Source: Natranaerofaba carboxydovora (lineage in GTDB: Bacteria > Bacillota > Natranaerobiia > Natranaerobiales > Natranaerofabaceae). Taken from it: 64,000 nucleotides of DNA. Below, piece after piece: positions 22,869 through 26,435 of this stretch (positions within the stretch are counted from its first letter, which is position 1; each line of letters begins with the position of its first letter). The notes beneath the pieces were generated by a model. The model worked only from the letters and a program-made list of their open reading frames with translations. It was not told the origin of the DNA and searched no databases. The stretch is taken from the NCBI RefSeq assembly GCF_022539405.1, contig NZ_CP054394.1, positions 622,501-686,500 on the forward strand. Direction: 5' to 3'. A program made the position numbers and the translations under genes.

Positions 22869-23821
22869 CAACTTCTCTTTATTTGCTGCATGGCGAAGAT
22901 AGTTTTAGAAAAAGTGAATACATAAAAAATTTAAAAAAAGAAGTTCTTGTTAACTCGGACGAAAATTTAAACTTTGATAGAGTAGATGGTGAAAAAGATG
23001 ATTTGGATACCCTGCAGGATATTATTGAAAGATCTCCTTTTTTGGGAGATAGACGTTTAATTTTAATTGAAAAAGCTCCTTTTTTTGGAGGTAAATGTGA
23101 AGAAAGGGTTTTAAAATACTTAGAGAGTTATATGGACAATCCTATCTCTACTAATATTATTTTATTTGTTGTCGACAAGGTGGATAAGCGTTCTCGGTTG
23201 TTTAAAAAAATAAAAAAAAGTGGAGAAGTTATTGAGTTAAATAACCCAAGATCCTATGAGGTCGAAAGTATTGTAAGAGAGAAGATATCATCATTAGGGT
23301 TAAGCTTTAAAAAGGATGCAGTGAACTTACTTATCCAAAATACAAATGGTAATTTGGGGGTAATAGAACAAGAGCTTAACAAACTATCGGCTGTAGCAGA
23401 AGAAGATACTGTGATCACAAAAGACACTGTAGAAAAATATGTTTCATCAACTGTCGAGTCAAATATATTTAAATTTGTTGACAAGCTAGGTGATAATGAT
23501 ATTGAACCGGCTTTGAAACAACTAAATGATCTTTTGCTATTAGAACCTGTACCAAGGGTATACTTTATGGTGTGTAGGCAGTTTAGGCTTTTGAACAAAG
23601 CGAAAATGTTAGTACAAGATGGGTGCTCCCAGGCAGAAATATCAAAAAAACTTAAAGTTCCAGGTTTTGTTGCCCAAAAGTTAATGATACAATCAAAAAA
23701 ATTTAGTTTAGAAGAGCTTAATAGCAAGATGATTGAACTTGGGGAATTGGATTATACCTTGAAAACCTCAGGGACATTTGATCAAAAATATATATTAGAA
23801 AAAGTGGTAATTAAAAAATAA
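22865..23821 (+). CDS. holA: DNA polymerase III delta subunit
   Basis: The delta subunit opens the sliding clamp within the clamp loader. The 318-residue protein starts with YLLHGEDSFRKSEYIKNLKK, typical of Firmicute HolA. It continues with IIERSPFLGDRRLILIEKAP and ends with the helical collar region (VCRQFRLLNKAKMLVQ, TSGTFDQKYILEKVV). ATG 22865 overlaps the stop of the previous gene. holA followed by rpsT on the opposite strand and then gpr, spoIIP and lepA is the usual Firmicute order. Confidence 0.92.
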   Translation: MTTSLYLLHGEDSFRKSEYIKNLKKEVLVNSDENLNFDRVDGEKDDLDTLQDIIERSPFLGDRRLILIEKAPFFGGKCEERVLKYLESYMDNPISTNIILFVVDKVDKRSRLFKKIKKSGEVIELNNPRSYEVESIVREKISSLGLSFKKDAVNLLIQNTNGNLGVIEQELNKLSAVAEEDTVITKDTVEKYVSSTVESNIFKFVDKLGDNDIEPALKQLNDLLLLEPVPRVYFMVCRQFRLLNKAKMLVQDGCSQAEISKKLKVPGFVAQKLMIQSKKFSLEELNSKMIELGELDYTLKTSGTFDQKYILEKVVIKK

Positions 23822-23849
23822 AAATCTACTCGTTAAGAGTAGATTTTTA
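23821..23849. terminator. Bidirectional terminator between holA and rpsT
   Basis: A perfect 11-bp stem is formed by AAAATCTACTC (23821-23831) and GAGTAGATTTT (23837-23847) with a 5-nt loop. T runs are available on both strands. It lies exactly between two converging genes and should serve both. Confidence 0.85.
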
Positions 23850-23850
23850 T

Positions 23851-24132
23851 TTAGCCCGTTTGTTCTTGTTCTATATGTTTATTTAGTCTTCTTGCTAGTT
23901 TTGATTTTTGTCTGTCTGCTTTATTTCTGTGGTAAACACCCTTATTTACAGCTTTATCAAATATTTCAGAGACTTTTTTATAGTTTTCTTTTGCTTCTTC
24001 TATATTATTGTTTTCTAGAGAGCTTTCGAACTTTTTGATTGCAGTTTTTACTCTGGATTTAATCATGCGATTTCTCTGAGTTTTCGTTTCTATAACTTTT
24101 ACTCTTTTCTTAGCTCCTTTTGTGTTTGGCAC
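23851..24132 (-). CDS. rpsT: 30S ribosomal protein S20
   Basis: S20 binds 16S rRNA in the small subunit. The mature protein is 93 residues and starts MPNTKGAKKRVKVIETKTQR; it is strongly basic and helical, with NKGVYHRNKADRQKSKLARRL near the end. The open frame extends further upstream to 24294, but the true start is GTG 24132, which has AGGAGGTGAT directly upstream. It is transcribed against holA and diverges from gpr. Some 5-8 extra acidic C-terminal residues (EQEQTG) exceed the common 88-residue length. Confidence 0.93.
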   Translation of the reverse strand: MPNTKGAKKRVKVIETKTQRNRMIKSRVKTAIKKFESSLENNNIEEAKENYKKVSEIFDKAVNKGVYHRNKADRQKSKLARRLNKHIEQEQTG

Positions 24133-24279: not shown

Positions 24280-25248
24280 ATGGATACAGAGCAATCTTTT
24301 AATACTGACTTGGCCATTGAAGCAGTAGAAGTGAAAGAGTTATTAGAGGCAACACCAAGAGATGAGATGAGTGGAGTTGAGACAACTACAAGTGAAGAAG
24401 AAGGAGTAACAATATCAAGAGTAAGCATAAAGACCCCAGCAGCCGAAAAAGCAATGAATAAAGCGATGGGGAATTATGTGAATATTGAAGCTGCCGGGTT
24501 AAGAGATAAAGATACTGAGCTTCAGGATAGGGTTACAGAAATTGTAGCAAGAGAACTTAAAGAGCTAGCAGGTTTTAATGATCAGATGGAGCTTTTGGTG
24601 GTTGGGCTTGGCAACTGGAACGTGACACCTGACTCAATAGGGCCAAAAGTAGTTGAAGATCTGGTTATCACAAGGCACTTATTACAATTAGTTCCTGACA
24701 GATTGGGTCCTGGATTTAGATCAATGGCCGGGATGGCGCCTGGTGTGATGGGAATAACGGGGATGGAAACAGCGGAAATAATAAAAGGGGTAGTAGAGCA
24801 GTTAAAACCCTCAATGATACTTGCTATTGACGCTCTATCTGCCAGGAATTTGGATAGATTAAATACAACCGTACAAATTGCTGATAATGGAATATCTCCC
24901 GGTTCTGGAGTGGGCAACAAAAGAATGGGAATTAATGAACAGACAATGGGAGTTCCTGTAATAGCGATGGGCGTACCTACAGTGGTTGATGCAGTAACGA
25001 TAGTGAGTGATGTTTTAAGTAAATTTGACGGGTCGAGTAATAATCAACAAAATCAAAATACGGATTATAACAAATTTAGGTTAATTAATGAAACATTAAG
25101 TCCTTATGGTGGAGCTAGTAATAAACTTATGGTTACCCCAAAGGAAGTTGATTCTTTTGCCGATGATATTTCTGAAGTTTTAGCAGGATCGATAAATGCT
25201 GCTGTCCACCCCAGAGTTTCCGAAGAAGGTTCTCATAAATATTTATAA
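24280..25248 (+). CDS. gpr: Germination protease (spore protease GPR)
   Basis: GPR degrades small acid-soluble spore proteins at germination. The 322-residue zymogen has an acidic propeptide before the likely self-cleavage region. The core includes LLVVGLGNWNVTPDSIGPK, ITGMETAEIIKGVVEQLKP and the motif ISPGSGVGNKR. ATG 24280 follows AGGTAGGG. Expression is normally forespore-specific (sigma G), but I could not identify a convincing sigma G site. It is direct evidence for sporulation. A hairpin that overlaps the spoIIP start lies downstream. Confidence 0.93.
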   Translation: MDTEQSFNTDLAIEAVEVKELLEATPRDEMSGVETTTSEEEGVTISRVSIKTPAAEKAMNKAMGNYVNIEAAGLRDKDTELQDRVTEIVARELKELAGFNDQMELLVVGLGNWNVTPDSIGPKVVEDLVITRHLLQLVPDRLGPGFRSMAGMAPGVMGITGMETAEIIKGVVEQLKPSMILAIDALSARNLDRLNTTVQIADNGISPGSGVGNKRMGINEQTMGVPVIAMGVPTVVDAVTIVSDVLSKFDGSSNNQQNQNTDYNKFRLINETLSPYGGASNKLMVTPKEVDSFADDISEVLAGSINAAVHPRVSEEGSHKYL

Positions 25249-25260
25249 CTTTTCTGGCAT

Positions 25261-25330
25261 ACCTCCCATTTTTAACATATATATATTTAAAACATATATA
25301 TAATAAAAGAAATGGGAGGTGATTTTTTTT
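25261..25330 (+). promoter_or_regulatory. Hairpin overlapping the spoIIP ribosome binding site (attenuator or terminator)
   Basis: ACCTCCCATTT (25261-25271) pairs perfectly with AAATGGGAGGT (25310-25320). The right arm is itself the spoIIP ribosome binding site, and the eight T's that follow (25323-25330) run into the TTG start. The loop is rich in TA repeats that could pair internally. The structure can be read as a gpr terminator and as a device that hides the spoIIP ribosome binding site in read-through RNA. Confidence 0.6.
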
Positions 25331-26435
25331 GAGAAATAAATTATTTTATTATAGAAGCGTTATTATTATGGTTATATTTGTTTTTTTGTTTGTCATCAAG
25401 CTGAATTTTTTGATTTTAAATACTTTCACAGCCCACAGCTCTGTTCAAAGCATATTACAGCCATATTCCAAAATTTTAATTACACAAGCCCTTCCTGGAC
25501 TTGAGTTGAAAAACGGAAAGACAATTTTTAACAATCCGATTGATATCATAGAAGGTTTTATGGCTATAATATATCCTGTTGATAGAACTGATCCTACGTC
25601 TTTTTTTACTGCTCAATATATCCCCTTACAGCAAAATCACACAGAAGTGTTAGCTATGGTGAACAATGATGAATTAGAAACAGACTATAAAGAACCTTCC
25701 GAAGTTACTCAAAATGTCGAGCAGCGAGGATATGAGAATACGATCAGTGAAATAGATGAAACAATTGATAATGGTGAACTAGAGGCGGAGTTTGATCTAG
25801 ATGCACCCGAAATAGAAGGAGTAGAAACGGATGAACCAAAAGTTTTAATCTATCATAGTCATACAACGGAGAGTTTTGTCCCAACATCAGGGAATGCTTT
25901 TTCCGAGAACCCGGAAGAATCAATAGTAAAAGTTGGAGAAAAATTAGTAAGTAGACTTGAGTCTTTTGGACTTGAGACTATTCATAATACAGATGTTCAT
26001 GATTTGCCAACAAGGCATGAAAGTTATGTGAGAAGTTTAGAAACTGTAGAAAGGATATTAGAAGAAAACACTGAAATTCAGATGGTTATTGATCTACACC
26101 GGGATGGAGTAAGAAGAGAGATGACAACGGCTGAAATAGATGGTGAAGAATTTGGGAAAATCCTGTTTCTTGTAGGTTCTAGAGATAATCACCCTGATTG
26201 GAAAAGAAATTATGGTTTTGCAAATAATATAAAAGAAAACTTAGAAGAGATAAGGCCTGAACTATCAAGAGGTGTTAAGACCAGGAGATTTTCTTATAAT
26301 CAGGAACTCCATCCTCATTCAGTTCTAATTGAAGTTGGGGGACATGAGAATTCTATAGAAGAAGCTAAAAGATCTATCCCCTATCTTTCTAAGGCGATTA
26401 AAAATGTTTATTTGGAAATAACGGACTCTAATTAG
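25329..26435 (+). CDS. spoIIP: Stage II sporulation protein P
   Basis: SpoIIP is the amidase/endopeptidase that helps thin septal peptidoglycan during engulfment, with SpoIID and SpoIIM. The 368-residue protein has one N-terminal membrane anchor (about residues 10-32) and a variable, acidic linker. The amidase domain has the zinc-type motifs YHSHTTESF, MVIDLHRDG, LFLVGSRDN and VLIEVGGHENSIEEA. TTG 25329 follows GGGAGGTGA. Gene order gpr-spoIIP is typical of this group. The start lies within a hairpin and T run, which is unusual. Confidence 0.92.
   Translation: MRNKLFYYRSVIIMVIFVFLFVIKLNFLILNTFTAHSSVQSILQPYSKILITQALPGLELKNGKTIFNNPIDIIEGFMAIIYPVDRTDPTSFFTAQYIPLQQNHTEVLAMVNNDELETDYKEPSEVTQNVEQRGYENTISEIDETIDNGELEAEFDLDAPEIEGVETDEPKVLIYHSHTTESFVPTSGNAFSENPEESIVKVGEKLVSRLESFGLETIHNTDVHDLPTRHESYVRSLETVERILEENTEIQMVIDLHRDGVRREMTTAEIDGEEFGKILFLVGSRDNHPDWKRNYGFANNIKENLEEIRPELSRGVKTRRFSYNQELHPHSVLIEVGGHENSIEEAKRSIPYLSKAIKNVYLEITDSN

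Follow-up and report, generated by a model that had tools for sequence, protein, structure and literature searches.

The gene for the engulfment cell-wall hydrolase SpoIIP in Natranaerofaba carboxydovora lies directly downstream of gpr, on the same strand and across a compact gap of 80 nt, and the locus raises the question of whether RNA that reads through from upstream, for which gpr is the likely source, can be translated into SpoIIP. The window analysed here is a stretch of 64,000 nucleotides that contains both genes (contig NZ_CP054394.1, positions 622,501 to 686,500), and an initial annotation of it had proposed that a hairpin in the gap keeps spoIIP translation tied to the gene's own promoter. 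The gene names gpr and spoIIP hold, with both NCBIfam models scoring above their cut-offs. We consider it fairly probable that the spoIIP leader is a read-through-blocking hairpin and that SpoIIP is made from its own promoter only. The features of the locus are collected in Table 1.

Table 1. Positions in the window of the genes, hairpin elements and candidate promoter at the gpr-spoIIP junction
Feature	Position	Strand	Basis and remarks
gpr (spore protease)	24280..25248	+	TIGR01441, 358 bits, cut-off 120; ORF
Candidate sigma-E-like -35, AAATATT	25237..25243	+	Promoter scan blind to the hairpin; within the last gpr codons
Candidate -10, CATACCTC	25258..25265	+	Promoter scan; 14 nt past the -35; predicted start ~25272
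Left (anti-SD) arm	25260..25273 (perfect core 25261-25271)	+	Inverted-repeat list and folding; overlaps the candidate -10 and the stretch to the predicted start
Nested A-U stem inside the loop	25278..25302 (25278-25286 with 25294-25302)	+	Inverted-repeat list and folding
Right arm	25308..25321 (perfect core 25310-25320)	+	Inverted-repeat list and folding
spoIIP SD core, GGAGGTG, within the stem	25315..25321	+	Duplex with anti-SD -12.5 kcal/mol
Run of eight T, possible terminator tail; last two T open the TTG start	25323..25330	+	Sequence
spoIIP (engulfment cell-wall hydrolase), TTG start 25329-25331	25329..26435	+	TIGR02867, 193.7 bits, cut-off 123.15; ORF

The hairpin over the spoIIP ribosome binding site

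The hairpin is real and beyond chance, as the analysis confirmed. Its core is a pair of perfect 11-bp reverse complements, ACCTCCCATTT (25261-25271) and AAATGGGAGGT (25310-25320), with 38 nt between them. The initial annotation had described a perfect 11-bp stem whose right arm is the spoIIP ribosome binding site and a T run that supplies the first bases of the TTG, and both descriptions were accurate: nearly all of the Shine-Dalgarno (SD) core GGAGGTG (25315-25321) is in the right arm, and with the run at 25323-25330 and the start at 25329 it is the first two bases that are so supplied. On RNA folding the stem grows to 14 pairs (25260-25273 with 25308-25321), with U-G pairs at its ends, and the minimum free energy of the hairpin was -23.6 kcal/mol against -9.8 +/- 2.3 kcal/mol for shuffled sequences (z = -6.1).

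When both strands of the window were searched for GGAGG followed by a start, one of 52 such sites fell in a perfect stem of at least 8 bp within 60 nt, and this was the spoIIP site; an 11-bp stem arose in none of 10,400 shuffles of upstream sequence. The energy needed to open the spoIIP SD was 14.6 kcal/mol, which ranked first among 49 genes of the window, the remaining 48 requiring 6.1 kcal/mol or less. Opening energy was used instead of the probability that the SD is unpaired, which proved a weak measure when compared with shuffles of the whole upstream sequence (p = 0.18 for the window, and below 0.05 at 12 of 63 loci), we think because such shuffles retain C-rich words. A search of Rfam returned eight matches, all far under the gathering score. 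Elsewhere in the genome a second spoIIP-like gene (L002, G000:C1:1547107-1547724) is without a strong SD hairpin, with an opening energy of 2.8 kcal/mol.

Accessibility of the binding site and the candidate promoter

Folding of RNAs with different 5' ends revealed a switch in the accessibility of the SD, which cost 14.7 kcal/mol to open in the long RNA and 0.8 kcal/mol in the short one. The cost was 13.3 kcal/mol for a 5' end at 25262, 6.7 kcal/mol (half open) at 25266 and 1.2 kcal/mol at 25270, so that the SD is closed in RNAs beginning at or before 25262 and open in those beginning at or after 25270. The proposal that read-through RNA hides the binding site was thus borne out computationally. 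Its counterpart, that RNA begun inside the loop leaves the site open, agrees with the value for the short RNA, except that the predicted start at ~25272 falls on the margin of the left arm instead of deep in the loop.

That start comes from a promoter scan in which transcription was taken, by convention, to begin 14 nt downstream of the position where the -10 begins. The scan weights followed a consensus and were fixed after the loci had been seen, and the promoter in the window is a prediction only, its score (AAATATT-N14-CATACCTC) being equalled by about 7% of dinucleotide shuffles (p = 0.07). At that score, the geometry of the match fits the published lengths and gap of sigma-E promoter elements, which are given as 8 nt and 10 nt with a gap of 12 +/- 1 in an excerpt of PMC517825. 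If the candidate is right, part of the left arm is encoded by its -10, and transcripts of this promoter would lack the arm from the outset. Because the arm at this locus overlaps the -10 and not the spacer, shuffling the spacer had no effect (p = 0.87). With a spacer of 12 nt and a poorer -35, an alternative promoter whose -10 is CATATATAT at 25276 was not preferred; read by eye, it would likewise start RNA beyond the left arm.

Under the explanation that we prefer, RNA from upstream, presumably from gpr, would contain the left arm, fold and hide the spoIIP SD, and little SpoIIP would be made from it; some of the gpr read-through RNA may also terminate at the T run. RNA from the putative sigma-E-type promoter of spoIIP itself, whose -10 region overlaps the left arm, would lack that arm and carry an open SD, and SpoIIP, a cell-wall hydrolase, would thus come from its own promoter only. 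What the computations show directly is the stem and how improbable it is, the dependence of SD accessibility on the 5' end, and the recurrence at spoIIP in many lineages. Every step after folding is inferred, from use of the promoter and the position of the transcription start to actual read-through and its consequences for translation.

Comparison with other spore-forming bacteria

The same-class comparison covered three genomes including that of N. carboxydovora, the two relatives (L003 and L004) belonging to the same order and to other families. Both have an ordinary, separate gpr terminator and no SD stem, with opening energies of 3.6 and 3.5 kcal/mol, respectively. A contig scan for close relatives by way of SpoIIP gave 31 pattern matches and no relative by tblastn, and the class, with its three genomes, offers no case in which this particular stem is conserved. 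The initial annotation had held that lack of conserved pairing in relatives would refute its proposal, and this is partly what we found, the two relatives being without the stem, but comparable hairpins recur in distant lineages. The broader proposal, that spoIIP translation is tied to its own promoter, gains from the computed SD switch and the sigma-E-like match at the left arm and loses from these two stemless relatives.

For the wider comparison, spoIIP was located no more than 900 nt downstream of gpr for 136 of 246 gpr hits. Removal of pairs with an SD weaker than -5.5 kcal/mol, a gap of more than 400 nt, or more than 80% likeness to a pair already kept left 84 distinct pairs, including that of the window. 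The automatic choice of start is doubtful in several of these (e.g., L045 and L155), and the choice of promoter is doubtful for L015 and L146, whose loops contain a -10 that looks better than the one chosen; all were counted as scripted. Opening energies of at least 10 kcal/mol were found in 18 of the 84 pairs, the other 66 falling below 10, and 20/84 beat their own shuffles at p<=0.05. An excess over shuffles of at least 7 kcal/mol was seen for 13/84 spoIIP leaders versus 0/51 for lepA and 0/62 for gpr (Fisher p = 0.0014 and 0.0005, respectively), and further controls gave 0/29 for spoIVA, 2/28 for spoIIR and 1/23 for spoIID. The distribution of this excess as a whole did not separate spoIIP from lepA (Mann-Whitney p = 0.22), and the difference lies only in the strong tail.

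The SD was closed (at least 8 kcal/mol) in spoIIP RNA beginning at the -35 yet open (at most 4 kcal/mol) in RNA from the predicted start in 21/84 pairs; in five of the 84 the short form was still closed (at least 8 kcal/mol). Compared with shuffles restricted to the spacer, the real stem was stronger at p<=0.05 in 15/84, and in the strong cases the partner of the SD lies mostly between the predicted -35 and -10 (e.g., L189, L063, L103, L122 and L041). When promoters were swapped against foreign SDs, the native combination paired better at p<=0.05 in 22 and 20 of the 84, depending on the direction, and in both directions in 16/84. A two-way swap in a fixed window gave 15/84 for spoIIP, 0/23 for spoIID, 2/28 for spoIIR, 1/29 for spoIVA, 0/51 for lepA and 6/62 for gpr, and because of this last control the swap test alone is not clean. 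Based on these data, comparable hairpins recur at spoIIP in distant, scattered lineages. Among spoIIP-like genes for which no gpr was found alongside, 5/20 required at least 10 kcal/mol and 3/20 exceeded their shuffles by 7 kcal/mol; the closed SDs in these 5/20 indicate that the shared theme is protection from any upstream RNA and not from gpr alone.

The hairpins were dense in two clades. Among 15 distinct leaders from the Thermoanaerobacterales, 91.9% of cells were paired, none of 500 shuffles attained the observed covariation score, and both partners had changed in two of the pairs; L143 and L162, with the hairpin in a shifted register, were left out of this count. In one species of the order, L153, the arms are separated by a long insertion, yet the left one remains paired with an SD located 102 nt past the -10. 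The second sample, the family of G267, which we took as Bacillaceae, returned 30 loci from 60 genomes. All 30 have an SD hairpin with the left arm within the predicted promoter; the long RNA required at least 8 kcal/mol in 26/30, and the long and short forms differed by at least 3 kcal/mol in 30/30. No T run follows the SD hairpin in the sequences of these loci, and the common part is therefore SD hiding and not termination. Column-wise covariation was dropped for the Bacillaceae because the register of the stem shifts between groups.

Related systems

The mechanism is already known in kind, having been proposed for sigG and described for gene e of phage T4, and what is new is its probable occurrence at spoIIP, where it is apparently recurrent. 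In IS10/Tn10, the transposase gene is shielded against external promoters by fold-back: read-through RNA folds over the start and RNA from the element's own promoter does not, although this is a mobile element with another sequence context. For B. subtilis sigG, a hairpin of 20 or more pairs, which transcripts of the gene's own promoter are unable to form, has been proposed to block translation of read-through RNA, in the excerpts of Mearls 2018 (PMC5942855) used here, where Masuda 1988 and Sun 1991 are cited for the hairpin. Like spoIIP, sigG is a sporulation gene behind another gene, and for both a hairpin is proposed that would block read-through RNA and be missing from own-promoter RNA. 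The two differ in that sigG is expressed in the forespore and has the longer hairpin (20 or more pairs against 11-14), whereas the spoIIP stem has a T run behind it and shares sequence with a sigma-E-like -10. In phage T4, the start regions of e, soc, 49 and I-TevI are sequestered in an RNA helix, and late-promoter RNAs of e and I-TevI, which are without the 5' arm, are translated (PMC3014915 and PMC2988022, in excerpt). Gene e encodes a lysozyme, in those excerpts, and is like spoIIP in being a wall hydrolase gene whose early expression is dangerous; the T4 case differs in being phage temporal control shown experimentally, whereas spoIIP is a bacterial developmental gene for which such control is proposed here from computation.

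The spoIIP locus was reportedly described by Frandsen and Stragier in 1995. Our literature search, outside which that paper lies and in which most matches were judged by their listing, found no description of a read-through hairpin at spoIIP, and excerpts of PMC13395437, PMC12700454 and PMC5158138 contain nothing on the spoIIP leader. According to PMC3789822 (in excerpt), sigma-F as well as sigma-E directs spoIIP transcription in B. subtilis and C. difficile, and PMC6934232 (in excerpt) places C. difficile SpoIIP in the forespore. These data concern RNA or sigma dependence; a leader hairpin could uncouple protein from RNA, or might be missing wherever the forespore requires SpoIIP. Read-through expression of spoIIP may even be wanted in some species, which counts against the explanation that we prefer.

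Alternative explanations

The hairpin could instead be a plain intrinsic terminator of gpr, packed tightly over the SD and start of the next gene, with SD hiding as a by-product. The 14-pair stem, followed by one base and then eight T, resembles an intrinsic terminator in its G-C pairs and U-tract, and the inverted-repeat list holds no other G+C-rich stem in the 80-nt gap. The 34-nt loop is very long for a terminator, however, and the SD lies within the stem; a terminator scan limited to loops of at most 8 nt did not list the hairpin. The two same-order relatives have separate gpr terminators, the Bacillaceae keep the SD hairpin with no T run, and at L015 and L198 the SD hairpin is accompanied by a separate one that resembles a terminator. 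Based on this comparison we regard termination as the sole function as unlikely.

It is decidedly unlikely, in our view, that the stem is a regulatory or tuning structure within spoIIP's own mRNA, transcribed from a start that precedes the left arm. The spoIIP start is known by prediction, and the leader of sigG does have a small tuning hairpin of this type at its ribosome binding site, of -6.2 kcal/mol, in addition to the blocking one (PMC5942855, in excerpt). The spoIIP stem, in contrast, takes 14.6 kcal/mol to open, belongs to no Rfam family at the gathering score, and has a promoter match that puts the start after the arm. The least probable of the readings is that composition alone is responsible, sigma-E-type promoters tending to be C-rich on the coding strand and SDs being G-rich, such that they pair with no function. 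Leaders of the sigma-E gene spoIID, with their C-rich spacers, do reach 10 kcal/mol in 10/29 cases, yet 2/29 exceed shuffles by 7 kcal/mol and the two-way swap gave 0/23. Against this reading, several spoIIP stems reach well past the SD core, the swap test was species-specific in 16/84, spoIVA, taken as a sigma-E gene, gave 0/29 at 10 kcal/mol or more, and 10,400 shuffles of upstream sequence failed to produce the 11-bp stem.

Implications

If a read-through-blocking hairpin does control spoIIP, transcription maps of sporulation would mislead, in that forespore spoIIP RNA from gpr read-through need not mean SpoIIP protein in that compartment. Accounts of the compartment in which SpoIIP is made differ between B. 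subtilis and C. difficile, and the hairpin, which is present in the family sample taken as B. subtilis's own, offers a direct test by changing one arm. Such a leader would also be a cheap, quickly evolving shield for dangerous wall hydrolases against leaky transcription, built from promoter spacer DNA.

Other sporulation genes

The pattern CCTCCC-N(20-50)-GGGAGG occurs in four places in the N. carboxydovora genome and in none of the control reading; these are the window, L384, L385 (which overlaps long open frames) and L387. At L384 (1501-1553; G000:C1:99609-99653), where fpg and ytaF (TIGR02840, a sporulation gene) adjoin, the interval holds an SD-hiding hairpin with an opening energy of 17.8 kcal/mol, stronger than that of spoIIP and as high in 0/200 shuffles, and CATATATT adjoins its left arm. 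Among 27 distinct ytaF loci, 16 required at least 10 kcal/mol, six exceeded their shuffles by 7 kcal/mol and 15 did so at p<=0.05, the last including both same-order relatives (L405 and L406, each p = 0.049).

These observations may point to a general design of spore-formers, which we put forward tentatively as an idea of about balanced merit, leaning slightly to doubt: sporulation genes behind other genes would carry an anti-SD arm in or beside their own promoter, often in the spacer between -35 and -10, and only RNA begun there would be translated. The known case of sigG, together with spoIIP and ytaF, would be instances, and gpr, lepA and spoIVA would not. The anti-SD arm would be free to evolve under such a design because, as promoter DNA, it would never enter the proper mRNA.

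At the spoIID loci (L266-L295), C-rich promoter spacers often face the SD, with 10/29 at 10 kcal/mol or more and 2/29 exceeding shuffles by 7 kcal/mol, and two spoIIR loci (L298 and L324) have strong SD-hiding hairpins of 14-15 kcal/mol. Upstream of gpr in the window, a 16-pair hairpin with a T tail (23816-23852) lies between holA on the plus strand and a small minus-strand ORF and could serve both strands; we take this ORF to resemble ribosomal protein S20.
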